Source: an uncultured Desulfobulbaceae bacterium (GTDB lineage: Bacteria > Desulfobacterota > Desulfobulbia > Desulfobulbales > CALZHT01). Taken from it: DNA of 64,000 bases. Within the stretch, counting starts at the first letter, position 1. Each line of letters begins with the position of its first letter. This document shows positions 4,647 to 59,418 of the stretch, in pieces. The notes under the pieces were generated by a model. That model saw only the letters and a program-made list of their open reading frames with translations, had not been told where the DNA came from and made no database searches. Where the stretch lies: NCBI GenBank assembly GCA_945787445.1, contig CALZHT010000002.1:1-64000 (forward strand). The letters are read 5' to 3'. Position numbers and translations under genes: made by a program.

Positions 4647-5903
4647 TTATTCTTTCTCTCTACGAATATTTACACCCACTCTTGCCAGTTTTCCCACCAG
4701 GTCATCATAGCCGCGATCTAGATGATAGACCCTGGAAATTTCCGTTATACCCTGGGCCGCAAGACCAGCAACTACCAGAGAAGCGCTGGCCCGCAAATCT
4801 GTTGCCATTACCGGGGCGCCGCTGAGCCGGCCTTTTCCCGATACAATTGCACTATTTCCATCCACCCGGATATCCGCCCCCATTCTGCATAATTCCGCCA
4901 CATGCATGAATCGATTTTCAAAAATGGTTTCATTGATAACGCTGAGACCATTGCTCAGAGTCATTAGAGCCATTATCTGTGCTTGCAGATCAGTGGGAAA
5001 ACCGGGATAAGGCATGGTTTTAACGTCGACACTGCGAATCGGCCCCTTGCGGGAAACATGGAGGGTATTAGCCCCTTCCTTAATGTGTAATCCTGCCCCT
5101 CTCAGTTTTTCGAGTAGAGAAGGGAGATGGGCAGGGTTGCAGTTGGTAATGGTTGCTTCACCACCGGTTGCACCTACGGCAATGAGGTATGTACCTGTTT
5201 CGATGCGGTCAGGAATCGTTGCAATGCTACTTGATTTAAGATTATTGACACCATGAATCACCAGTTTGTCTGTATCCCGCCCCTCAATCTTTGCACCCAT
5301 GCCAATGAGCATATCAATGAGATTGCCTATTTCCGGTTCCTTGGCTGCATTCTTGACTATTGTTGTACCCTTGGCCAGCACAGCAGCCATAAGGATATTT
5401 TCAGTGCCGGTGACAGATGGGATATCAAAATAAATGGTGCTCCCCTGCAATCGTCCATCTACCGTGGCATCCACATATCCCTCTTTGAGATCGATTTTCA
5501 CCCCTAGTTTTTCAAGGCCCTGCAGATGAAAATTAATGGGGCGCGCCCCAATTGCGCAACCGCCGGGCAAGGAAACTTTGGCCCTACCCAGACGGGCAAT
5601 CAATGGTCCCAGCACCAACACGGAAGCACGCATGGTTTTCACCAGATCATACGACGCTTCATGTTGTCCCAGATTGGATGAATCGATTGTAAGAGTGGTG
5701 CCATTCTTCTTCCAGGTAACTCCAAGCGATTGGAGCAATTTAAGAATTGTTCTCGTATCACGGAGGTCGGGAACATTCAATAAGGTCTGGGGTTCAGGTG
5801 TAAGGAGTGAAGCGGCGATAAGTGGCAAAGCCGCATTCTTGGCGCCGCTGATAGTAATTTCGCCCTGAATGGGCCGGCCACCTTCAATAACAATTTTATC
5901 CAT
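4647..5903 (-). CDS. murA: UDP-N-acetylglucosamine 1-carboxyvinyltransferase
   Basis: MurA transfers enolpyruvate from PEP to UDP-GlcNAc, the first committed step of peptidoglycan synthesis, in the cytoplasm. The 418-residue frame has the usual length and the N-terminal SGAKNA motif (Lys22). The loop [12 protein letters not shown] carries the catalytic Cys at about 116, the fosfomycin target. [11 protein letters not shown] near the end is typical of EPSP-synthase-fold MurA. It is the last gene of the leftward rho-rpmE-prfA-prmC-murA run and is convergent with the broken kinase. An unusual inverted repeat lies between it and prmC. Confidence 0.97.
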
Positions 5904-8788: not shown

Positions 8789-10042
8789 TTACCCATTCAT
8801 TGAATCAAAAAACTCCGCGTTAGTTCGTGTCCCTTTCATTTTGTCTTTTAAAAATTCCATTGCATCCACTGGATTCAAGGAAGAAAGAAGTTTCCGCAGT
8901 ATCCACACCCGATTGAGTTCGCCTGGCTCCAGGAGCAGGTCTTCTTTTCTCGTTCCAGAGCGGTTGATGTCCATGGCCGGAAATATTCTCCGGTCGGAAA
9001 GCTTGCGATCAAGAATAATTTCCATATTGCCGGTGCCTTTAAACTCCTCAAAAATGACTTCATCCATCCGGCTTCCCGTCTCAATAAGAGCAGAAGCAAT
9101 AATGGTAAGACTGCCTCCTTCCTCAATATTTCTCGCTGCGCCAAAAAATCTTTTGGGACGATGCAGGGCATTAGAATCAACACCACCGGAAAGGATCTTA
9201 CCGCTAGGCGGGACCAATGTATTGTATGCCCGGGCCAACCGGGTGATACTGTCGAGCAGAATCACCACATCGTATTTATGCTCAACAAGGCGTCTGGCTT
9301 TTTCCATTACCATTTCCGCAACCTGGACATGCCGTTGCGGCGGCTCGTCAAAGGTGGAACTGATCACTTCGGCATTGACGCTTCTGGCCATGTCCGTAAC
9401 CTCTTCCGGCCTTTCGTCAATGAGAAGTACGATCAGAATAATTTCCTTATGGTTCTTGATAATGCTGTTGGCAATATCTTTGATGAGCACCGTTTTTCCG
9501 GTTCGCGGCGGGGCAACGATAAGTCCCCTCTGACCTTTGCCGATCGGCGCCATGACATCCAAGATCCGCATGGATAGATTATCTGCCTGCGCCTCTAAAT
9601 GCACCCGCTCATTGGGATGGAGTGGGGTCAGATTCGTGAAAAGGGTTTTTTCTTTGACTTTTTCCGGGGGTTCAAAATTTACTGAATCAACTTTGAGCAG
9701 TGCAAAGTAGCGTTCGCCATCCTTGGGGGATCGGATTTGCCCCTCTATGGTATCACCAGTCCGGAGATTAAGGCGACGGATCTGAGAAGGAGATACATAT
9801 ATATCATCAGGTCCGGGCAGATAATTATAGTCAGGGGCACGCAAAAAGCCGAAACCGTCAGGCAACACTTCAAGTACACCGCTTCCCCGTGTTTGCCCAT
9901 TCTTTTCAGCCGACGCTTGGGCTTGCAAGATGGCAAAAATCAACTCCTGTTTCCGCAGGCCGCTGACGTCATCGATCTTTAGCTCTTTGGCCATCCTGGT
10001 CAGTTCGTTGATCTTTTTGAGTTTCAATTCGCTTAAATTCAT
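8789..10042 (-). CDS. rho: Transcription termination factor Rho
   Basis: Rho is the hexameric RNA-dependent ATPase that ends transcription at unstructured RNA. The 417-residue protein has the N-terminal Rho domain ([19 protein letters not shown]) and a cold-shock-like RNA-binding domain ([14 protein letters not shown], about 55-125). The RecA-like motor has Walker A APPRTGKT (177-184), [10 protein letters not shown] and the Q-loop region. The bicyclomycin-contact region is intact. A GGAGG-type site precedes the ATG. A 490-base gap separates it from coaE, so it probably has its own promoter. Confidence 0.97.
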
Positions 10043-47781: not shown

Positions 47782-49041
47782 TTAAAAAAACAACCTGTAT
47801 TCCAGAGAGATGGATTGGGGAAGTGTGCCGAATTCGGAGCGGATTTCTGTCATGACCGGCTCGTCTCCATACGGGATATTTATACCAAGGGCCAGTTCGG
47901 ATTCATCAGATACGGAATAGACAAGATTGAGGGCAAGGAGTCTGGAATGGTCCCTCCAATTATATAGAAACACTGTGTCCCCAAAGAGCAGCGGGGAAAA
48001 TTCATAGCCAATACCAAGGGCTGAATAATTACTGCCCAGATAGCCGCCGGTGAAGCTTCCTGCTATCAAGGCGGCATTGGCCTCTGCAATGCTGTTGTAG
48101 CCGCTGCCATGATAAAACTGCTCGAATCTGACATCGAGACTGCTGGCAAACCGGTGTTCGAGCCCTACGGTTAACTCGGAATAATGGTTTTCTCCATCCT
48201 TTTCCGGCGAACCATAATGCCCTTCCGCCCGCACACCGAGCCAGTCGAACACTTCCCCTTGCAGTGACCCGCCTATGATGGTATGATCGCGCACCGTACC
48301 GCCAAGCAAAGCCCATTCAAAATCATATCTGGATGCAGAGATCCTGGCCAGAAGCGACGATCCAGACCAGTCCGGTTCCTCGCTCCAGCCGGAATCAGGT
48401 ACCATTTCCTGTTCATACCCCAACACCCCTATCAGGGACAACTGTGACAACTCTTGTATGCGATACTCAGCCCGGAAACCGTCCACTCCGGGCTTGTAAA
48501 CCCGAAAAAAGGCAACGGCGACAAAAGGGGCAAAGAAATCATTGGGGGTAAAAAAAAAGGTTGTGGCGAGATTGATCGGCTGTCGCCCCACAGTTATATC
48601 GAGCCGATCCGTGGCCCATTTGGCCTGCAATACATCCAGGGTGAGAAAAGCAAGAACGTCCTGGTTGTCCTTCTGCTCCCAGGTAAAGAGACTGCTGCGT
48701 TCCGGTTCATTGGCAAGATTTACTCCCCGGGTAATGCTAATTGTTTGAGCGGACTGCACAGTTTGCAACAGGTTTATCTCAAAAGAAAGATCCTCAGAAA
48801 CCACTCCATCTCCAAGGAGCCGCAAATCCCCTCCCCATAGTTCATTCGACCTTTCTGGAAAAAACGATTCGTTATCAGGGTTACGCAAATAGCCGCCGAA
48901 AAGGGCTGTGAAGCCGGAAAGATTGAGGATTGTGTTATCAAGATTCGAATTGGCTGCCGCGAAAGCCGGGGGTGGGGAAATAATGAACCCGCCAATGAAA
49001 AACAGCACGCAGAAGGTGCTGGCAAAGATACCGAATTTCAC
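47782..49041 (-). CDS. Outer-membrane beta-barrel-like protein
   Basis: The 419-residue protein begins with a signal peptide (MKFGIFASTFCVLFFIGGFIISPPPAFAAA) and consists of alternating short amphipathic strands (DLRLLGDGVVSEDLSFEINLL, LLALNLVYSVSDESELALGINI). It ends in Phe (ISLEYRLFF), the usual beta-assembly signal for outer-membrane proteins. The GTG start overlaps the stop of the ABC ATPase gene by 4 bases. It therefore belongs to the transporter operon and could be its outer-membrane component; that role is inferred. Confidence 0.75.
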   Translation of the reverse strand: MKFGIFASTFCVLFFIGGFIISPPPAFAAANSNLDNTILNLSGFTALFGGYLRNPDNESFFPERSNELWGGDLRLLGDGVVSEDLSFEINLLQTVQSAQTISITRGVNLANEPERSSLFTWEQKDNQDVLAFLTLDVLQAKWATDRLDITVGRQPINLATTFFFTPNDFFAPFVAVAFFRVYKPGVDGFRAEYRIQELSQLSLIGVLGYEQEMVPDSGWSEEPDWSGSSLLARISASRYDFEWALLGGTVRDHTIIGGSLQGEVFDWLGVRAEGHYGSPEKDGENHYSELTVGLEHRFASSLDVRFEQFYHGSGYNSIAEANAALIAGSFTGGYLGSNYSALGIGYEFSPLLFGDTVFLYNWRDHSRLLALNLVYSVSDESELALGINIPYGDEPVMTEIRSEFGTLPQSISLEYRLFF

Positions 49042-49745
49042 CTTTTTACCTCATCGGCACAGAGCTTGCCGTCCCGCATACCGACAACCCGCCCTGCCCT
49101 CTCCATCACCCGATGATCGTGGGTTGAGAATAAAAAAGTAATGCCTTTTTCACGATTCAAACCTTCCATGAGGTCAAGGAGGGAAGATGCGGTGGCCGAG
49201 TCCACATTGGCCGTGGGCTCATCGGCAAGAACAATGGCAGGTTCCGCCGCAATGGCCCGGGCAATGGCGACCCGCTGCTGCTGGCCGCCGGACAGCTCAT
49301 CAGGCCTGCGGTCTTCCAGCCCTGCCAGACCGACCTGTCCCAGAATATTCATTACCCTTGCCTTCCTTTCCTTTTCCGGCACATTCTGGAGAGCAAGGAC
49401 AAATTCCGCATTCTCATAAGCAGTCAATACCTGGACAAGATTATAGGCCTGAAACACAAAGCCGATCCGATCTCTACGCAAACTGGACAATTCACTACGG
49501 CTGAGACTGCCGAGGTCCTGACCTTCAAGATATACCGTGCCGCTGGTCGGGACATCCAGGGCGCCGATCAGATTGAGAATCGTTGTCTTGCCTGAACCGG
49601 ATGGACCGCTTAAGACCGTGAATTCGCCTTGGCGGATGTTGAGGGTAAACGCATCCACCGCAGTGACATCCACCTTGCCCTGACGATACATCTTGCTCAC
49701 TTCTTTGAGCTCCACAATGGCTTGTTGTTCCATAGCTTTTACCAT
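49038..49745 (-). CDS. ABC transporter ATPase, LolD/MacB type
   Basis: The 235-residue ATPase has Walker A LSGPSGSGKTTILNLIG, the Q-loop GFVFQAYNLVQVLTAYENAEF, signature LSGGQQQRVAIARAI, Walker B IVLADEPTANVD and a switch His in STHD. The LolD/MacB/FtsE-like pattern fits the two FtsX/MacB-type permeases encoded upstream. A 476-base spacer with a dispersed repeat separates it from the permease gene, unusual for such an operon. It overlaps the barrel gene by 4 bases. Confidence 0.93.
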   Translation of the reverse strand: MVKAMEQQAIVELKEVSKMYRQGKVDVTAVDAFTLNIRQGEFTVLSGPSGSGKTTILNLIGALDVPTSGTVYLEGQDLGSLSRSELSSLRRDRIGFVFQAYNLVQVLTAYENAEFVLALQNVPEKERKARVMNILGQVGLAGLEDRRPDELSGGQQQRVAIARAIAAEPAIVLADEPTANVDSATASSLLDLMEGLNREKGITFLFSTHDHRVMERAGRVVGMRDGKLCADEVKR

Positions 49746-50041
49746 ACCTTTTCTGTAAGCGAATAAATGCTACAGCGACAATTCCTTCCATGCCCGGCCG
49801 TTAGAGTTGAAAATTGCGCAGGAATACTTGGCCCGTGGCTGGGGACTCCTTACAAGTGCTGCTGAAGCCGCTTCGGTAATAGGCGCGTTATTTAAGCAAG
49901 AACCGCTTTTCATCTGAATCGGGTGCCCGTAGCTCGAACGGGGCTTCCGCCAGCATCACTTTCCAGGAGCACCCAGCCACTCGTAAAGTTATTTTACTTC
50001 AAAGTGTCATTGCAGCATTAATCAATCCTGATGATCCCATA
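49746..50041. other. Unexplained 296-bp segment inside the ABC operon
   Basis: This stretch is richer in GC than the surrounding spacers and precedes repeat copy C. It holds a 47-codon leftward frame (49770-49913, MKSGSCLNNAPITEAASAAL and on) without a clear ribosome site. It also has inverted hexamers GGGTGC (49921-49926) and GCACCC (49969-49974) that could close a structured element. I cannot assign it. Confidence 0.35.
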
Positions 50042-50223
50042 GAAAGTTGGGAAAGCGGTTAACGTGCCATGTAATTTCAACTAGTTATAACGTAATACAT
50101 CGATGAACTGACAATAGCATGGCAAGAAGTACATGCTGTGCTTATCGCCTTTTTCATCGCAAGGGGCCATAACGGTTAACGCGTCCGCGCAGCAGACAAA
50201 TCGTATTTTTTAACGATTTCATC
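50042..50223. repeat. Dispersed repeat copy C with a ~91-bp insertion
   Basis: The left part GAAAGTTGGGAAAGCGG, TTAACGTGCCATGTAATTTC, AACTAGTTATAACGTAATAC matches the other copies. After CGATGA (to 50106) about 91 foreign bases follow (50107-50197), then AAATCGTATTTTTTAACGAT and TTCATC complete the terminal hairpin. The final bases overlap the TGA stop of the permease gene at 50222. The insert itself contains another AACGGTTAACGCG. Confidence 0.85.
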
Positions 50224-51460
50224 AATCCTGTTTAATGCTCTCGCAAGGTGGTATCCTTCCTGCCCTGAAGGCCGGATACAGGCCTGAAAGCAGGGTCAGA
50301 CCAAAGACTCCGGTCAATATGGCGATCACACTTTCCTTAAAAAGCCGAATTTTAAGAACAGGGTCAAACAACACGCCGCCGACACTGTAATCGTCACCGA
50401 TCAGAGATTCCAGGTTGATACCTGTTTTACTCATGAAGATATACCATGGCGCGGTAATAACAATCCCTAAGACTAGCCCCATAACCCCGATCCAGAATGA
50501 TTCAATGATCACAAGTTTTACAACCTGGCTCGGCGCCATGCCCATGGCCATCATAATGCCGAACTCCCTGGTTCGTTCCATGACGGACATCAGCAGGGTG
50601 TTGAAAATCCCGGCTGCAATGAGCAGGCCTATCAAAAACTGCAGCAGATAGTTACTGGCCCGGTCAACGGCAATCAATCCGGCAAGCTCCGCCTGGGTCT
50701 CGTTCCAAGTCAGCACTTCATGTTGACCCGTGCCTATTGTCTGTATTATCTCCAGCCGCCTTCCATCGGCCCGCCGTTGATCTTCAATGAAAACCGCGAC
50801 CATGGATGCATCCTGTTCTGCGTAATGAAGCGTCTTCCGCAGCCGGTCTATGGGAAGCAGCACAATGGTACTGTCCACCATATCCTCGCCGGTTCTGAAA
50901 AGACCGGAAACCCTGCTCACTTGACTGACCATTTCGCCGTTTTTATCGGTCACCGTATATACCAGCTTTTTGCCGAGCCGCAAGCCCAGCCTTTCAGCCA
51001 TCTTTTCTCCGATAACAATCTCCCGCCCCCCTGTTTCAGCAAACATCTTCCCCTTGGTGATGGACCGCAGAAAAATGTTGTGCTCTTCTGTTTCGTTCCC
51101 CGGATGAACACCGAGGAACATTCCGCCCACGCTTTTTGCGCCGCTCGCGAACATGGCCTGCCCCATGATGCGAACCTGGGCGTCTGTTATGCCGGGAATA
51201 TCCAAAACTCTTTTGCGGATATCATCCGCATCTCCAATTGTTTTGGCCAGGGTCGGGGAATCGTTGTATCCGGGCGGCTCAATGGTCAGGTGTCCGAGCC
51301 CCATGGTGACGCTGGTGTCAATCATATTGGTATAGCTGTAATCCCCGGATCCGGTGAAGGTTACGGTGAGCAGAACCCCGAAGGCCACGGAAAAGGAGGT
51401 TATAGAGGTCCTCCTTTTATGCCGCAACAGGTTGCGCCAAGCCATTTTACCTAACCGCAT
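50222..51460 (-). CDS. ABC transporter permease, FtsX/MacB (LolE-like) type
   Basis: The start at 51460 is chosen for AAAGGAG about 6 bases upstream, giving MRLGKMAWRNLLRHKRRTSITSFSVAFGVLL and 412 residues. There is an N-terminal membrane helix, a large periplasmic domain (about 45-280) and three C-terminal helices, the FtsX/MacB/LolC-E layout. VMERTREFGIMMAMGMAPSQVVKLVIIE is the typical cytoplasmic loop. The stop TGA is formed in a dispersed repeat (KQD then stop). It probably pairs with the next permease and the ATPase. Confidence 0.92.
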   Translation of the reverse strand: MRLGKMAWRNLLRHKRRTSITSFSVAFGVLLTVTFTGSGDYSYTNMIDTSVTMGLGHLTIEPPGYNDSPTLAKTIGDADDIRKRVLDIPGITDAQVRIMGQAMFASGAKSVGGMFLGVHPGNETEEHNIFLRSITKGKMFAETGGREIVIGEKMAERLGLRLGKKLVYTVTDKNGEMVSQVSRVSGLFRTGEDMVDSTIVLLPIDRLRKTLHYAEQDASMVAVFIEDQRRADGRRLEIIQTIGTGQHEVLTWNETQAELAGLIAVDRASNYLLQFLIGLLIAAGIFNTLLMSVMERTREFGIMMAMGMAPSQVVKLVIIESFWIGVMGLVLGIVITAPWYIFMSKTGINLESLIGDDYSVGGVLFDPVLKIRLFKESVIAILTGVFGLTLLSGLYPAFRAGRIPPCESIKQD

Positions 51461-51503
51461 TGTTGCTCCTTTTCGAATTGTGCATCCACTCCACGGCAAA
51501 ACA

Positions 51504-52727
51504 TTACCGGTGATAAATAGCTTGTACCGGCCTTATAACCGCCGCCTTTCCTGCCGGGTACAGCACGGCAAACAAGGCCATACCGAAGAGTACGGCAACC
51601 GGGGTAAAAACAGATTCAAAAGTGACCCGGGAATACCAGACCGGGTCAATGGCAATGCCGGCAAAGGTGAGTGATGCACTGGCAAGCTTTGAAAGATCAA
51701 TGGGATGGCTTTCACAATAATAGGAAAGCGGCACCCCGCCGGCCAAGGCCAACAACGAAGCAATGGATACCTGCATCACGGTTTCAAGGAGGATCAGCGA
51801 AAAAACACGCCATGGTGCAATACCGAGGGCCTTCATGATGCCGAATTCCCGTATCCGTTCATAGACACTCATCAACATGGCATTTAAGGCCAATATACCG
51901 ATGGCGGTATAGGTTATCATGAGCATGATGATCAATGAATACCGGGAAGTATCGACAATTCGGGCGACCACCGGTCGCAGCTGCCGCCAATTTTTCACTT
52001 CCAGATCAGGTACAAGATCGCCAAGATTTTGGGTAAGCTGTTCTAAGGGTGTTTCCCGGCCCTGCCAGCGCACTACTATCTCATGGACTCCAGCCTCAAG
52101 AGCCATAAGGTCTCGGAAACTGCTGGCATTTAAAAAAAATCCATTGGCATCAATACCCTCGCCAATGGATTTTAATATTCCCCGCACCGCATATAAATCA
52201 TTGGCCATGGAACCATCCGCGGCCTGGCTGACAACGACGACTTCATCACCAACCCCGACGTTCAGCGTTTTTGCGAGTTTACGGCCGATCACCACACCAA
52301 ATGGATCCCTTTCATCCAGCCACTTTCCTGTCATGATATGGCCATAGGCCTCAGTAACCAAGGATTCCCTTTCAAGATCAACGCCGCGGAGGCGCACCCC
52401 TGCAGAGGCCTTGCCGGCTGCCGCCAGTCCAAAGGCATAGAGCCTGGGAGTGCCGATAAAACCAGCACCCTCTATAGTTTGGAGCAAGGCAATATCCTGA
52501 TAAATGAGGGTGTATAGATCAGGATCTGTTCTGTAGCCAGGCACATGGATCTGGAACTGGCCAAGTTCCATAGAGATGGCGTTTCTTTCCGTGGCATCTA
52601 TAATCCCTTCCATTAATGAGGCATAGAAAATCATGATGAAGCCGGCAAAAGCCATGGCGCTGATGGTAATCCAGGCTCGGTGACGTTGCCTGGCGACATT
52701 TCGAAAGGCAAAGGATACAAGATTCAT
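51504..52727 (-). CDS. ABC transporter permease, FtsX/MacB (LolC-like) type
   Basis: The 407-residue protein has the same topology as the permease downstream: MNLVSFAFRNVARQRHRAWITISAMAFAGFIMIFYASLM, a periplasmic domain to about 270, and a three-helix C-terminus with VYERIREFGIMKALGIAPWRVFSLILLE. Two different permeases with one ATPase recall a heterodimeric LolCDE-type transporter. It starts 6 bases after the LolA-like gene ends. Lipoprotein or lipid transport is the best guess; a MacB-like exporter is the alternative. Confidence 0.92.
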   Translation of the reverse strand: MNLVSFAFRNVARQRHRAWITISAMAFAGFIMIFYASLMEGIIDATERNAISMELGQFQIHVPGYRTDPDLYTLIYQDIALLQTIEGAGFIGTPRLYAFGLAAAGKASAGVRLRGVDLERESLVTEAYGHIMTGKWLDERDPFGVVIGRKLAKTLNVGVGDEVVVVSQAADGSMANDLYAVRGILKSIGEGIDANGFFLNASSFRDLMALEAGVHEIVVRWQGRETPLEQLTQNLGDLVPDLEVKNWRQLRPVVARIVDTSRYSLIIMLMITYTAIGILALNAMLMSVYERIREFGIMKALGIAPWRVFSLILLETVMQVSIASLLALAGGVPLSYYCESHPIDLSKLASASLTFAGIAIDPVWYSRVTFESVFTPVAVLFGMALFAVLYPAGKAAVIRPVQAIYHR

Positions 52728-52733
52728 AAAAAT

Positions 52734-53510
52734 TTATCTGCGGCGCAGTTGATGGAGCGAGAAAAAAGAGTCCGCTATTTCCAAGTCAAATTGGATGGAT
52801 TGGTAGACCATTTCGGTAAATTCCTCAGGCTTGTCCGTCGGCACCACATGCATTAGTGCAGGAACCTTGCGCCCTCCCATTTCCTTGATATCACTGAAGG
52901 TGAACGTTCGGGCAAGAACCATATCTTCATCAAAATATTGCGAGACAATGGGCAGATGGTCCTGAGCTGTTATAGTAAAAACTATTTTGCCCCAGACCAC
53001 CGGGGCATCCGGTTTTGGTATGAGTCCAAACTCGATAATGCTCCGGCCGTCCCGCTCACCTTCAAAAACTATCTCGGGATCATAGTCCTCGGAAAGTCGT
53101 GATTCCTTGACCAGGTCGTCATTGGTGAAATGGCTGCCCATCCATGAGCCCATCATCATGGACGAAGTCAGCCGGATGGTGCGGTCGGTTTTGGGAAGGT
53201 AGGTATACACATTGTTTCCGGACTTCAGGGTGGCGGTGTCTTTTTCCTTGCGTGGGGAAAGGATACGGACCAGCGACTTTTCCTTGCCTTTGGTCCAGTT
53301 TTCCATGGTGACCGTCCGGGTATAATGCCTGGTCTTTACCCTCATTGAAAGAATTGAATGCGAAGATTGCGAGCGCCAGAGATCATCAACCTCTTCAAGT
53401 ATCTGCCGCGCCCTCATGGTTGTGGAGCTTGACCCACCATATACATCCTGACCAATAACCAAGAACAGAAAAAAAACACCAATTATCGTCATTCGTAAGA
53501 TGGTTGCCAC
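52734..53510 (-). CDS. LolA-like outer-membrane lipoprotein-sorting protein
   Basis: The 258-residue exported protein has a hydrophobic signal region (MTIIGVFFLFLVIGQDVYG) followed by a LolA-fold-like sequence: TMENWTKGKEKSLVRILSPRKEKDTATLKSGNNVYTYLPKTDRTIRLTSSMMMGSWMGSHFTNDDLV. GGRKVPALMHVVPTDKP is near the end. These match proteins annotated as outer-membrane lipoprotein-sorting protein, which usually neighbour MacB-type permeases. It probably shuttles a lipidic substrate across the periplasm for the ABC transporter. Start GTG at 53510, with GAGG upstream; the ATG six codons later is an alternative. Confidence 0.82.
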   Translation of the reverse strand: MATILRMTIIGVFFLFLVIGQDVYGGSSSTTMRARQILEEVDDLWRSQSSHSILSMRVKTRHYTRTVTMENWTKGKEKSLVRILSPRKEKDTATLKSGNNVYTYLPKTDRTIRLTSSMMMGSWMGSHFTNDDLVKESRLSEDYDPEIVFEGERDGRSIIEFGLIPKPDAPVVWGKIVFTITAQDHLPIVSQYFDEDMVLARTFTFSDIKEMGGRKVPALMHVVPTDKPEEFTEMVYQSIQFDLEIADSFFSLHQLRRR

Positions 53511-53660
53511 CTTGAACCTCTTTTTTGAAAAAATATGATGCCGCTGCTCCTTTTATTTGAGGCCTAAACCGCATATAACGGTTAAAAAATCATACTGAAG
53601 GACAATTCGAAACTCAAGAGCGAACAATGGCAACATGCAAGAATTTAGCGTTTTCACAAT

Positions 53661-53698
53661 AAAAAAAAAGCCCCTCGATTTTCTCGAGGGGCTTTTCT
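53661..53698 (-). terminator. Intrinsic terminator after the first ImcH-like cytochrome gene
   Basis: AAGCCCCTCGA (53668-53678) and TCGAGGGGCTT (53684-53694) form a perfect 11-bp stem with a 5-base loop. On the leftward strand a run of nine T follows. It lies 35 bases after the cytochrome stop codon. Confidence 0.93.
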
Positions 53699-53732
53699 AT
53701 GGTTATTATTTACGATTTAGGAGATCTAAGTG

Positions 53733-55172
53733 TCACTCAGGCTCGTCATGACAGAGGCTGCAATCCTGCGTAATGGTATCGCCATTGGCGTTCTCATGCT
53801 CCTCATCATGACAGCGGAAGCAGCCATAGCCTTCATCAGCGTACTGATGGCCAAGGTGCATTTGATAGGTACCCCAGCCGATGTTCATTGCCGGCCAGAC
53901 ATTGGCGTTGTATACCTCGAGGATGAATTCGCCGGCCCGTTTGATATCTTCTTCATATTTTTTGGCCGTTTCCACATCACGCTGGGTCTGCAGTTCAAGT
54001 AGATACGAAACAATCTGCTCATTGGCCTCATCCTTTGTTGCATAGTTTTTCCTGATAACGGTGAGACTGTCTTCCCGGATACCGGGAATCTCAGGATTGA
54101 TGCGTTTGCTGAGCAGGCCGAAATCAACCCGTTCTTCAGGCATATCATAAACATGGGTGGGCCGGTTGTGGCAGTCGATGCAGTCCATGATCCGCCATTC
54201 AACATCTTCTCCCTCAGGAACCTCGATATCACTCTTCACAAACTCATCTTCAGTGCCGTCGGGGCGTTTTACTCTGACCTTGGCAATCTGTGTTCTCTTT
54301 TTGTCCACTGCAAGGTAACTAACCTCGACATTGTTACTGACGTGCCAGTGGATGCCTTCAAAAGCATCGGTTTTCGGATTGCGGCCCCCAATATGCAGGG
54401 CAATTTCATTGACCTCGGGATTTACCTGATCATCATTGTCAAAATGAGTAAAAATCTTGATCTTTTTCCCATGAAATTTCTCGGGCCAATGGCAATGCTC
54501 ACAGGTATCCCGTGCAGGACGCAGATGCTCAACCGGAGCCGGAACCGGCCTGCTGAAGCTGTCAGTAGCCACGGCAAGCACCTGCCTCAGACCGGAAATT
54601 TTGGCGCGCACAAACCATTGGGCGCCGGGACCTATATGGCATTCGACACAAGCGACCCTGGCATGGGGAGAGCGCTGATATGCGGTGTACTCGGGATCCA
54701 TTACCGTATGGCACACCTTGCCGCAGAAATAGGAGGAATCGGTAAAGTGATAGCCCTCATAGCCAATGATGGCAAGAATGGCAAAATTGATAACTGTAAG
54801 AGCTATAAAACCGATCACCCATCGCCTGTGCTTGTGGTCGCTGAGATTGATATGAAGATGCTCTTTGGAGATACCGAACTTATAAAATTGCCTGCGTCTG
54901 AGAAATGCCGCGATGGGAATGATGGCAAGGCCCAACATCATACCTGCCGGCAAGATCATATAGGTAAAGATAGCTGCATAGGGATTATCCACCAATCCAA
55001 GGGTGTCAACGATAAAACCGATTATCATTAAGGTGATGCTTACCGTGGTTATGACAACACCGATAAGACCGAGCGGTGTGCGCCACATGCCCCTTATGAT
55101 ATGGCCCCAGGGTCCTTTATGCACATGCACCTCAGATTCTTTTTCTTTTGAATTAATGTCATCAGCGCTCAT
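53733..55172 (-). CDS. NapC/NirT-family multihaem cytochrome c, ImcH-like (copy 1)
   Basis: The 479-residue protein has three membrane helices in the first ~145 residues and a periplasmic multihaem domain. Five CxxCH sites are visible (CVECH, CEHCH, CIDCH, CFRCH, CSLCH), plus a first site CGKVCHTVM with three residues between the cysteines. The sequence around SPHARVACVECHIGPGAQWFVRAKISGLRQV strongly recalls ImcH of Geobacter, a quinol-oxidising inner-membrane cytochrome for extracellular electron transfer. Electron export from the quinone pool is therefore inferred. It is the last gene of a leftward unit with MerR and a second copy upstream, ending in a strong terminator. Confidence 0.88.
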   Translation of the reverse strand: MSADDINSKEKESEVHVHKGPWGHIIRGMWRTPLGLIGVVITTVSITLMIIGFIVDTLGLVDNPYAAIFTYMILPAGMMLGLAIIPIAAFLRRRQFYKFGISKEHLHINLSDHKHRRWVIGFIALTVINFAILAIIGYEGYHFTDSSYFCGKVCHTVMDPEYTAYQRSPHARVACVECHIGPGAQWFVRAKISGLRQVLAVATDSFSRPVPAPVEHLRPARDTCEHCHWPEKFHGKKIKIFTHFDNDDQVNPEVNEIALHIGGRNPKTDAFEGIHWHVSNNVEVSYLAVDKKRTQIAKVRVKRPDGTEDEFVKSDIEVPEGEDVEWRIMDCIDCHNRPTHVYDMPEERVDFGLLSKRINPEIPGIREDSLTVIRKNYATKDEANEQIVSYLLELQTQRDVETAKKYEEDIKRAGEFILEVYNANVWPAMNIGWGTYQMHLGHQYADEGYGCFRCHDEEHENANGDTITQDCSLCHDEPE

Positions 55173-55372: not shown

Positions 55373-55798
55373 TTATTTCGTTTTTGCGGAAGCTGCTGAT
55401 CGGGCTTGCTTCATGGCCTCAATATAATAGTCGCAGTTAGCGCATTCCTTCATTTCCCGATTGCAGGCGGTGGTGGCGCGCTCCCAACAGGGAATGGTTC
55501 TGTCCATAAAAGCGGAACATTTCTCTCGTATTTCAGGCGGGCAGTCTTTGATCTCCCAACAGGGAGTAAGGTCAAGGAGCATTTTAATGCCCGGAATGCT
55601 AATTCCCTTATCATGAATTAGGGACCGGATGCATTTAATCCATTCGATATCATCATTGGAGTAATAACGCTTGTTGCCTTTTCGGGCGGGCTTAATAAGT
55701 CCTTCATCCTCGTAAATCCTTAGGGTCCGAGGATGCACCGATAAAAGTTTTGATGCAACACTTATGGGATATATCGACTCACTGCTTTCAATGGGCAT
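55373..55798 (-). CDS. MerR-family regulator with cysteine-rich C-terminus
   Basis: The 141-residue protein begins with a MerR winged-helix domain (YPISVASKLLSVHPRTLRIYEDEGLIKPARKGNKRYYSNDDIEWIKCIRSLI), similar to HspR-like regulators. The C-terminal 60 residues hold eight cysteines in a pattern like CWEIKDC, KC, PCWE, AC, ECANCDYY. Such spacing suggests a metal or iron-sulphur site, possibly a redox or metal sensor. It sits between two ImcH-like cytochrome genes in the same direction and is the obvious candidate to control them. A 240-base AT-rich region lies upstream. Confidence 0.87.
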   Translation of the reverse strand: MPIESSESIYPISVASKLLSVHPRTLRIYEDEGLIKPARKGNKRYYSNDDIEWIKCIRSLIHDKGISIPGIKMLLDLTPCWEIKDCPPEIREKCSAFMDRTIPCWERATTACNREMKECANCDYYIEAMKQARSAASAKTK

Positions 55799-56039
55799 TC
55801 ATTTCTCCTAAATCGAAACATCTGGCAAAGTTATTCCTTAACTGTAGAGGATGGATGACTAAAAACAACTGAATTAACCAAAAGGAAAGGGTAATTGTCA
55901 ACAAAAAAGGTAGTCGAGAACTATAACGCCCCTAGATTATGAGAAAAATATTTTTTATGAAAACACAGTCGGAAGCTCATAACGAAAATACCTGATCAAG
56001 TAAGGGGAATTCCCTTTTTATAGTTGTATTGCCCTGTTT

Positions 56040-57512
56040 CTATTCCTCCATTGCACAGATGTTGAGGACCTCTGAAGCAGGTTGCTCCTTGGCGAGGATT
56101 GTATGACAGGATTCGCAGGTAGTTGAAATAAATTCACCGCTTTCAGACCGGTGGGAACCATCATGGCAGCGGAAACAGCCGCCGTTGTCATCGTGGCCGA
56201 TAAAATCCTTGTAGGTTCCCCATTCGACGTTCATCTCCGGAAAAACATTCTCAACATAAGCCATCTGTACGCCACGCACCGCCTTGGCCAACAGGGAAGA
56301 TTGCTTCTCAGTTATTTCCGGATAATGTTCTCTGTACCAGCCAAGAAGCTGAATATTGATACCATTTCTTGCCTTTTCAGCGGTTGCGTATTTCTTGGTA
56401 ATGGCTGCAAGTGCCTCCCTCTTAATAAAGGGGAGTTCCCGGGGAATCTCGCCCGTAAACAGTTTCAGGTCAAGAGCTTCATCCGGCGACAGATAAATGT
56501 GGGTGGGTCGGTTATGGCAGTCCATGCAGTCCATTTCACTCTCCCCGCCCTGCTGGGAGTCCGGATTTCCTGAATCCCTGCTATTCCCAGCTTCACTTTC
56601 CGTTTTTGCATAGACCACTTCAGTGCCGTCAGCCTTGATCAGCTTGACTTCAACAATATTCTGCCGTTCCCTGTCTGTATACCGGTAAACAATCTTGTTT
56701 TCAGGGGAAACATGCCAGTGGATCCCATGGGCCTCTTGCCCCCTGTATCCGCCGGATCCCACCTTAATGAGCATTGCTGTCTGCAAATGGGTGTTTTCCT
56801 CATCAGGCAAGAATTTGTCTTTTACATACAATTTGGCGCCATGAAACATTTCTGGACGGTGACACTCTTCACAGGTCTGCCGCCGAGGTCTCAATCCGCC
56901 AATAGGTGTTTTGATCGGTTTGCTGTAGGTATCGAATGCCACGGCAAAAAGCTGCTTGACCCCGGAAAATTTAGAGCGGGTAAACCATTCGGCATCCTCG
57001 CCGATGTGGCACTCGACGCAGGAAACCCGTGAATGAGGGGAATTCTGAAATGTTACATATTCCGGGTTCATGACCCTATGGCAGAACTGCCCGCAGAAGG
57101 CCACTGATTCGGTGTAATGGAAAGCAGAGTAAGAAAAAACAAGGACAACAATGATGGTGATATTTATTATGAGAGTGATCAAGATGATGAGACGCCGGAC
57201 TCTACTGACGCGGCCCGGCTTGGTAAATTGTTCTTTGAGGTATTCGTAGGTATAGATCCCGATGTCTTCGGTGCCCTTGAAGAAAATAATGCCCAGCAGA
57301 AGGAGGAGGAGACCCAGACCAAAGAGGGGCCCCATCACCATATAGGTGAGAAAACCAAAATAGGGATTCTTGATGATCCCTTGCATATCAAGGGCGGCAG
57401 CAACAAAGAGAAAAGGAAAAATAACCGTGGATATCAAGGCCCCGATCAAGGAGACCTTGCTGCGCGCAATGCTATTTACAACAACCCTGAAAACTTCCCC
57501 GACATTAACCAT
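56040..57512 (-). CDS. NapC/NirT-family multihaem cytochrome c, ImcH-like (copy 2)
   Basis: The 490-residue paralogue of the gene at 53733 has the same layout: three N-terminal membrane helices, CGQFCHRVMNPEY (again three residues between the cysteines), CVECH, CEECH, CMDCH, CFRCH and CESCH. A low-complexity insert near residue 310 (ESEAGNSRDSGNPDSQQGGESE) precedes the CMDCH site and is absent from copy 1. The two copies may serve acceptors of different potential, as proposed for Geobacter inner-membrane cytochromes. ftsH follows downstream in the window order but is transcribed upstream of it. Confidence 0.88.
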   Translation of the reverse strand: MVNVGEVFRVVVNSIARSKVSLIGALISTVIFPFLFVAAALDMQGIIKNPYFGFLTYMVMGPLFGLGLLLLLLGIIFFKGTEDIGIYTYEYLKEQFTKPGRVSRVRRLIILITLIINITIIVVLVFSYSAFHYTESVAFCGQFCHRVMNPEYVTFQNSPHSRVSCVECHIGEDAEWFTRSKFSGVKQLFAVAFDTYSKPIKTPIGGLRPRRQTCEECHRPEMFHGAKLYVKDKFLPDEENTHLQTAMLIKVGSGGYRGQEAHGIHWHVSPENKIVYRYTDRERQNIVEVKLIKADGTEVVYAKTESEAGNSRDSGNPDSQQGGESEMDCMDCHNRPTHIYLSPDEALDLKLFTGEIPRELPFIKREALAAITKKYATAEKARNGINIQLLGWYREHYPEITEKQSSLLAKAVRGVQMAYVENVFPEMNVEWGTYKDFIGHDDNGGCFRCHDGSHRSESGEFISTTCESCHTILAKEQPASEVLNICAMEE

Positions 57513-57570: not shown

Positions 57571-59418
57571 TCAAGCGGGGAATTCCGTCTGGCATGCATC
57601 ACCCTCTAATTCAGAGTTTTCTTTATTGTCCTTCATCTGTTTTTGGGTACATTCATAAATGATATCCATTTCTTCCTTATCGAGCATTTCCGTCTGCAGA
57701 AGTATTTCAGCAAGCTGGTCGAGAAAATCCTTTTCCCGCGCCAATATTTCAACTGCCTCCTGGTAACAGCCTTCAACCAATTTCCTGATTTCATGATCGA
57801 TATCTTGGGCGGTCTGCTCACTAAAAGTCAAGTTTGTGGACTGCTCGCCCAAAAAACCTGCTTCGCCCTGTGAATATGACATTGGGCCGATCACATCGTC
57901 CATTCCCCATTTACATACCATGTTAGCGGCAATGCCGATGGCCTGGGCCAGATCGTCTTCAGCTCCAGTGGTGCGCTGATTAAGCGCCACCTCTTCGGCG
58001 GCCCGACCGCCGAGCAATATGGATATTCGATTTTTAAGATACTCTTTGGAATACACATGGCGGTCATGCAGAGGGAGCTGCTGGGTGTGCCCCATGGCCT
58101 TACCCCTGGGTATGATGGTTATTTTATGCAAAGGGTCGGTTTCGGGCATGAACCGGGCAACGATGGCGTGACCGGCCTCATGATAGGCCATGGTTTTTCT
58201 ATCCTTGTCATTGATTACAAAGCCCTTTCGTTCGACTCCCATGAGAATCCTGTCTTTTGCCGCCTCAAAATCGCTTTTGGCTATGGCATCCTTTTCAGCG
58301 CGGCCGGCAATCAAGGCGGCTTCATTCACCAGGCTTGCCAGTTCAGCGCCAGTGAAACCAGGGGTCGCTTTAGCAAGTTCGTCCAGCTCTACATCTTCCG
58401 CCATCCGGACCCGGCGGGTATGAACTTCGAGAATTTGCTGACGGCCTTTCACATCCGGGGAAAGCACGGTAATCTGGCGGTCAAATCGGCCTGGTCGCAG
58501 TAGGGCCGGGTCAAGAATATCCGGCCGGTTCGTGGCGGCAAGCAAAATGATTGTTTCGTCAGAACCAAAGCCATCCATTTCAACAAGCAGGGCATTTAAG
58601 GTTTGGCCGCGTTCGTCCTGGCCGCCAACCGCGCCGCCGGCAGCGCGATGGCCGCCAACCGCGTCAATTTCATCAATAAAAATGATGCAGGGTGTATTTT
58701 TCTTTGCATCCTGAAAAAGATCCCGAACACGTGATGCACCGACACCGACAAACATTTCGACAAAATCGGAACCGCTGATGCTGTAAAACGGCACCCCTGC
58801 TTCCCCGGCAACCGCCTGAGCAAGCAACGTCTTGCCCGTTCCGGGAGGACCTTGAAATAGAATACCTTTGGGAATAATGGCGCCCAGCTTGCTGTATTTC
58901 TTCGGTTTCTGGAGAAAATCTACAATTTCAAGCAATTCCTCCTTTACCTCGGGTATGCCTGCCACGTCACGAAAGGTTACCTGTTTTCCTGAGGAGGCGA
59001 AATTGATAGCCTTCCCTTTTGCAAAGTCGGATCCTCCCTCGCCTTGCCCTTGTTTCCGCATAACTAAAAACCATACAAGCAGAATAAGTGCTACAGGAAT
59101 GGTAATGGAAATAATATTCCATAGTGGAGAGGGCCTGTCGGATTGACCGTAAATCACAATTTCCTTTTCCGATAGTTTAGGCAGCACACCTGCAATATCC
59201 GGAACAAAAGTTCTGTACTGTCGGTCATAGATGTCGGTCAGAGTTACTTCTCCTCCACGGATCCTGACCTCGGAAATCTCATTGTTGTCAAGGCTTAAGA
59301 GAAATTCATTATAGCTTATGGAAGGCACCTTGCTTTCCATGTTCCAGAAAATCAGAACAGTGATGCCCAATACCGCAATTACAATGATGGCAAATAAAGT
59401 CCGGAAAAAAGTTCCCAC
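57571..59418 (-). CDS. ftsH: ATP-dependent zinc metalloprotease FtsH
   Basis: FtsH is the membrane-bound AAA+ protease that degrades short-lived and misassembled membrane proteins. The 615-residue protein has two N-terminal membrane helices flanking a periplasmic domain, Walker A GPPGTGKT (about 195), Walker [14 protein letters not shown] and the SRH with arginine fingers ([19 protein letters not shown]). The zinc site is HEAGH (about 421). The pore loop [17 protein letters not shown] is intact. The acidic tail ([16 protein letters not shown]) is unremarkable. The start is at the rightmost ATG before a 305-base gap. Confidence 0.97.

Follow-up and report, generated by a model that had tools for sequence, protein, structure and literature searches.

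A gene lying between two multihaem cytochrome genes of an uncultured Desulfobulbaceae bacterium encodes a MerR-family regulator whose cysteine-rich C-terminal part, hereafter the tail, is best read from its sequence as a shortened two-CW domain with seven cysteines and two tryptophans. Such a tail naturally suggests a metal-, Fe-S- or thiol-based role, and the regulator is probably a metal- or Fe-S-based switch for anaerobic electron-transfer genes. The complete proposal, to which we give about an even chance, is a MerR-family transcription factor with a compact two-CW effector half, through which the state of a metal centre, likely an Fe-S one, adjusts the adjacent electron-transfer genes. 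The features on which this proposal is built are collected in Table 1, in coordinates of the window, that is, of the whole 64,000-nucleotide stretch of DNA that was analysed.

Table 1. Features of the regulator locus in the window.
Feature	Position	Strand	Evidence
LolA-like protein, two FtsX/LolCE-type permeases and LolD-type ATPase, downstream of cytA	49038..53510	(-)	Pfam, NCBIfam
cytA, multihaem NapC/NirT-type cytochrome, directly downstream of the regulator	53733..55172	(-)	PF03264, 29.3 bits vs 24.1
MerR-type regulator gene, 141 aa	55373..55798	(-)	ORF and translation; MerR_1 match
Compact two-CW-like domain, residues ~77-131	55406..55570	(-)	Conserved columns; hhalign with controls; weak NF045718 match
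Winged-helix DNA-binding domain, residues 10-76	55571..55771	(-)	PF13411; AlphaFold confidence
Likely regulator promoter, TTGACA, 18 nt, TTAATT	55872..55901	(-)	Suggested by conserved blocks in three genera
cytB, multihaem NapC/NirT-type cytochrome, directly upstream of the regulator	56040..57512	(-)	PF03264, 33.9 bits vs 24.1
FtsH protease gene, upstream of cytB	57571..59418	(-)	TIGR01241, 757.5 bits; order shared with L048, L049

The regulator and its cysteines

The reading frame of the regulator is preceded by AGGAG, six bases 5' of the ATG. Its product belongs to the MerR superfamily, since the Pfam model MerR_1 (PF13411) matches residues 10-76 with 69.7 bits, for a gathering cut-off of 21.6. 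Orthologues in the two other genera of the family are 75% identical to it, and a search of plasmids with the regulator returned only partial matches, none of which went past query residue 110 and all with less than 60% identity. An AlphaFold model, computed with the window's regulator and 52 relatives as input, has block-mean confidences of 87-96 for residues 11-70, and pLDDT values below 50 at residues 79-86 and 93-116.

The protein contains eight cysteines in total, at positions 56, 80, 86, 94, 104, 112, 119 and 122. Cys56 lies in the DNA-binding (HTH) half, within helix 48-63, and the other seven are found in the last 62 residues, six of them in the last 60. They are arranged as PCW-x4-C-x7-C-x9-CW-x6-C-x6-C-x2-C, with the tryptophans at 81 and 105. 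A first, sequence-only reading of this DNA had counted eight cysteines in the C-terminal 60 residues, a number that is right for the whole protein and too high for that segment. All the motifs it listed (CWEIKDC, KC, PCWE, AC and ECANCDYY) are found in the tail and together hold seven cysteines, so that with Cys56 of the HTH half its eight is a whole-protein count.

The tail resembles a two-CW domain

The NCBIfam model of the two-CW domain (NF045718) matched the tail alone with 16.7 bits, and with 12 bits in a genome scan, both of which are below its curated cut-off of 35. Profiles were then compared with hhalign, and 60 MerR tails aligned with 36 two-CW domains, taken from the same genome and its relatives, with a probability of 96.2 and a score of 51.1. 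Both sets had been excised by cysteine patterns, and the guard against cysteine bias lies in the controls. The best score was 13.3 in 60 shuffles of all columns and 9.5 in 60 shuffles that left the cysteine columns fixed, a reversed alignment scored 8.6, and the probability in controls was at most 1.6%. Because the controls are far below 51.1, the match between tail and two-CW domain is not due to cysteine content or cysteine positions alone. The more distant subgroup E of the regulators (see below) scored 31.0 against two-CW domains, compared with 8.1 in 40 shuffles. For subgroup D the match to two-CW domains was weak (19.6 against 14.9 in 40 shuffles), and its match to subgroup A was strong (59.4).

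Conservation of the cysteines

At a threshold of 1e-15 the regulator found matches in 33 of 58 related genomes, and these fall into three types. In the A-type all seven tail cysteines are kept, whereas in the B- and C-types only the first three are at their positions and the tail is otherwise different (called hereafter the half-domain form). When matches outside the window were ranked by score alone, the best 20 were all A-type, 19 of them whole and one cut at a contig end. The eight cysteines, Trp81 and Trp105 do not vary among 20 aligned A-type proteins, which come from 19 genomes and were picked by a pattern that already requires four tail cysteines. In a scan of genome contigs (80 loci kept of 165 relatives), the seven-cysteine pattern was present at 45 of the 46 loci whose match reached query residue 125 or beyond, the exception being L132, which looks frame-shifted.

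A larger comparison comprised 160 distinct sequences, identical copies having been dropped and the A-type being defined by a cysteine at position 104; the contig-cut rows L067/L127 and L130 and the frame-shifted L132 were retained in it as named exceptions. Cys80 was present in all 160 sequences, Cys86 and Cys94 in 159. All eight cysteines and both tryptophans were found in 65 of 69 A-type rows; two of the incomplete rows are cut by contig ends and two (L165_34 and L236_27) are probably mis-sorted by way of one aligned cysteine. Half-domain rows had Cys56 and Cys80 in 76 of 76 cases, and Cys86 and Cys94 in 75, with L132 again the exception. Just the three tail cysteines occur in 39 of these 76 rows, and at least one additional, unaligned tail cysteine in 36. 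The more distant D- and E-types (10 and five rows, respectively) are built alike, except that loop lengths differ and the tail cysteines number six to eight. All ten D-type rows and two of the five E-type rows lack Cys56, and the tail of two D-type rows holds six cysteines. The sequence-only reading had named, as an outcome that would speak against it, cysteines that are not conserved among orthologues next to ImcH-like genes; in the orthologues encoded beside NapC/NirT-type cytochrome genes they are conserved.

When the D-type is used as root, a tree of the DNA-binding half nests the half-domain forms within the seven-cysteine forms, with several low supports. Seven tail cysteines are therefore probably the older state. 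The four cysteines retained after loss of the second half include Cys56, in the DNA-binding helix. Two identical copies of a C-type regulator are present 3.6 kb apart on one contig (L070:1548-1910 and 5110-5472).

Such a pattern could also be produced by structural zinc, held by the cysteines in a zinc ribbon or treble clef, with a tail that does no more than help dimerisation or bind another molecule, in an otherwise ordinary regulator that senses no redox change. The four cysteines kept in the half-domain form would suffice for one zinc, and the nearly rigid cysteine spacing of the aligned A-type proteins fits zinc as well as Fe-S, as is the case for any cysteine pairs of fixed spacing. We nevertheless consider structural zinc rather unlikely, given the distribution of the two-CW domain and the genes that surround the regulators.

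Two-CW domains on other proteins

The genome from which the window comes encodes five two-CW domains that exceed the cut-off, on a HisKA kinase, an MCP, an HTH-like protein, an epimerase-like protein and a small stand-alone protein encoded at G000:C68:2833-3072. Below it are two more, one belonging to a kinase with receiver domains and the other to a GGDEF protein. Among the 58 related genomes, 51 have a two-CW domain over the cut-off. Found in one genome with so many kinds of output, the domain looks like an input domain, which suggests a sensory or input module. This diversity of partners is commoner for an input domain than for a structural zinc site. Moreover, Pfam searches matched no family, zinc-binding or other, to the tail of the regulator, nor any to the stand-alone two-CW protein, and redox and Fe-S genes are abundant among the neighbours of the regulators in several lineages; both observations speak against structural zinc. 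By sequence, the stand-alone protein had no convincing relative among solved structures (best E value 0.72).

Some of the two-CW proteins have other features. The HTH-like protein (126 aa, G000:C4:24800-24970, L013), which matches HTH_19 with 24.1 bits for a cut-off of 30.2, is possibly a second fusion of a DNA-binding and a two-CW domain. A chemoreceptor (L012:479-2248, on G000:C153) combines a CZB zinc-binding domain with a C-terminal two-CW domain. Tandem pairs of two-CW domains are present in some reading frames (G033:C98:2204-2728 and G016:C106:3649-4038).

Gene neighbourhoods

The gene order in the window is ftsH, cytB, merR, cytA, lolA-like, two ftsX-type permease genes and a lolD-type gene. 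CytB resembles NrfH of PDB entry 2j7a (E value 1.6e-5), and CytA had no match among PDB sequences at 0.001. The LolA_like model (PF17131) exceeded its Pfam cut-off, as did FtsX for the one permease that was searched, and the matches to the LolCE and LolD models stayed under their NCBIfam cut-offs. It is odd to find a multihaem cytochrome linked to an exporter of the lipoprotein type. Other families of the order share the arrangement of cytA followed by LolA-like, FtsX-type and LolD-type genes (49038-55172), L059 and L065 in full and L063 without the ATPase.

Neighbours were surveyed for 151 anchors minus six (five D-type and one E-type); the window itself was left out of the counts, and unmatched reading frames of fewer than 140 aa were passed over in naming the nearest neighbour. 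In the main lineage of the A-type (A_main), a NapC/NirT-type cytochrome gene directly adjoins the regulator at 34 of 48 loci. Nineteen of the 34 are cytB-like and upstream, nine are cytA-like and downstream, and the rest are cytA-like upstream or cytB-like downstream (three on the opposite strand). An adjacent cytochrome is missing at 14 of the 48 loci, and contig ends take up nine of the neighbour slots of all 48. A conserved protein of about 600 residues is encoded immediately upstream of the regulator at seven of the 48 loci; its representative (L065:7274-9079) matched no Pfam or NCBIfam model. The half-domain regulators of the B- and C-types are located directly downstream of an NrfD-family gene at 60 of 73 loci. 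Genes for DsrO-like Fe-S proteins and triheme c7 cytochromes recur nearby.

Other lineages have other neighbours. In the A-prime lineage a radical-SAM gene follows the regulator at 10 of 11 loci, and ilvD and M16 peptidase genes are near. No NapC/NirT-type cytochrome gene was found in the locus stretches of any of the 11 A-prime or the four cyanobacterial-lineage loci, and hence the two-CW tail is not specific to cytochromes. The link to adjacent cytochromes that had been drawn from the window alone thus holds only for the main A lineage. Two E-type loci were searched, with matches mostly under the curated cut-offs: L225 has DsrO-like and NrfD-type genes, and L226 NrfD, sulfur-transport-like and rhodanese-like genes. 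At the D-type locus L219 the regulator is preceded by sufC- and sufB-like genes and followed by mobB and mobA; mob-like genes, recognised by sequence only, are present at L220 as well. Two cyanobacterial-lineage regulators are divergent from genes with Nitro_FeMo-Co domains. A nearby gene at L131 fuses an Mrp/NBP35-type ATPase to a Nitro_FeMo-Co domain, which is the architecture of MrpORP, a protein that binds and transfers Fe-S clusters (PMC6345978).

Most of the relatives that carry names are Desulfobulbaceae, Desulfurivibrio and Desulfuromonas MAGs or unassigned Deltaproteobacteria, and these hosts are likely anaerobic. Half-domain regulators were also found in Desulfosediminicola flagellatus (L166).

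MerR proteins are classical metal sensors, and the regulator could be one of them, its thiols directly binding a toxic or trace metal ion or reacting with sulfide or polysulfide without any Fe-S cluster. The sulfur-transport-like and rhodanese-like genes that precede an E-type regulator gene would suit this possibility, as would the Mo-cofactor genes that follow a D-type one. We judge it improbable, however. The MerR, CueR, ZntR and CadR-PbrR models gave 20 to 26 bits with the regulator, far under their cut-offs of 147 to 168, and the sensors themselves use two or three cysteines, fewer than the seven conserved here. In addition, there was no metal efflux gene among the recurring neighbours that were identified, part of the neighbour clusters having been searched.

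Promoters and operators

Two blocks upstream of the regulator, TTGTTGACAA and TGGTTwATTC, are conserved in three genera of the family; they are missing from a stricter consensus list. Judging from these upstream letters, the regulator gene seems to have its own promoter. The sequence-only reading had also suggested that a dyad operator might be shared by the regions upstream of 55172 and 57512. Repeat searches, dyad counts and an alignment with the two nearest genera revealed no convincing one, the alignment covering the upstream regions of cytA and the regulator, and repeats and counts that of cytB.

The operator of the heat-shock repressor HspR, called HAIR, is CTTGAGT-N7-ACTCAAG. None was detected in the regulator region, and the window as a whole contained one at three mismatches, at 8912, against 2.4 expected. 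That the regulator is an HspR-like repressor with an incidental cysteine-rich tail is highly improbable: among NCBIfam models HspR (NF047375) matches the DNA-binding half best (5.5e-21), and the ftsH gene lies two genes upstream, but the 74.4 bits fall short of the cut-off of 105, none of 18 genomes has a match above it, the HAIR operator is not at the gene, and the tail is conserved.

A palindrome of 20 bp, TTGACAATT-N2-AATTGTCAA, lies 5' of the regulator at all four cyanobacterial-lineage loci (0, 0, 2 and 2 mismatches of 18). It is perfect at L131:6218-6237 and L149:2794-2813, between the regulator and divergent Nitro_FeMo-Co/ORP-like genes, where it overlaps the likely -35 box, and near-perfect at L163:2568-2587 and L167:9909-9928. 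With up to three mismatches it occurred in none of 300 shuffled upstream regions of A-type genes, a test that is not independent because the motif was chosen after the same loci had been viewed. At the same stringency it was found in none of 75 upstream regions of B- and C-type genes and none of 41 of cytochrome genes, and among the other 56 A-type upstream regions only in L202, with three mismatches. Its best match in the window has six mismatches and consists of the left arm only, which doubles as a -35 box.

Proposed mechanism and significance

The cysteines probably bind metal, and we give about an even chance to this being one or two Fe-S clusters, which we favour over structural zinc. 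Fe-S is the first choice because of the neighbouring genes and the likely anaerobic hosts, with zinc as its main rival, and an Fe-S or redox reading of the regulator is plausible. Haem, which the sequence-only reading had offered as a second option, is unlikely, as the tail contains neither CxxCH nor any histidine.

On the Fe-S reading, the regulator would act as a dimer and would bind near its own promoter and the promoters of the adjacent cytochrome genes. One candidate four-cysteine site, made up of Cys56, Cys80, Cys86 and Cys94, would link the tail with the DNA-binding helix; a second candidate site comprises Cys104, Cys112, Cys119 and Cys122. Since Cys56 is missing in the D-type and part of the E-type, and two D-type rows have six tail cysteines, such a scheme of four plus four is not universal. 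A change in redox state or cluster occupancy may alter DNA binding, and the adjacent electron-transfer genes, probably together with the regulator's own gene, would be adjusted as a consequence.

The MerR fold and the two-CW domain are each already catalogued. For the two-CW domain, its fusion to MerR, and the conservation and operon logic of this fusion, no description was found in the literature searched, which covered few subscription papers, and none of the papers in it names the domain. A broader and more tentative idea is that a widespread, undescribed MerR class of anaerobes reads the cytoplasmic Fe-S or redox state through a two-CW domain with seven or eight cysteines and two clusters. 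Kinases, chemotaxis receptors and cyclases might then take their redox input from the same module, and sub-classes of the regulators might control multihaem quinol dehydrogenases, NrfD complexes, Mo-cofactor genes and Fe-S assembly genes. Abundant as two-CW domains are in these bacteria, the stand-alone copy has neither a Pfam match nor a convincing solved relative by sequence. Should the domain prove to be a redox or Fe-S input, this would account for the way in which sulfur- and metal-respiring bacteria tune their cytochromes and NrfD complexes. The regulator, a soluble protein of 141 aa, is an easy test object for a domain that is also carried by large signalling proteins.

Comparison with known systems

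The tail has the same order of seven cysteines and two CW pairs as the two-CW domain of NF045718. It differs from it in length, about 55 residues with shorter loops versus about 80, and in being joined to a MerR domain.

Among MerR proteins, the closest DNA-binding domains found were those of HspR and of the GlnR/TnrA type, neither of which is known to have a two-CW tail. With the metal sensors CueR, ZntR, CadR and MerR the regulator has the DNA-binding superfamily in common. The effector half had been described from its sequence as unusual for HspR-like or metal-sensing MerR proteins, and the NCBIfam scores, all under their cut-offs, agree with this.

SoxR is a MerR regulator with a [2Fe-2S] cluster, whose ligand motif is CxxCxC-x5-C. 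This motif is absent from the sequence of the regulator, which the SoxR model matched with 17.2 bits for a cut-off of 116.9, and the tail has seven cysteines versus four in SoxR. The two proteins would nevertheless work alike if the cysteine-rich tail of the regulator holds an Fe-S cluster beside its MerR DNA-binding domain.
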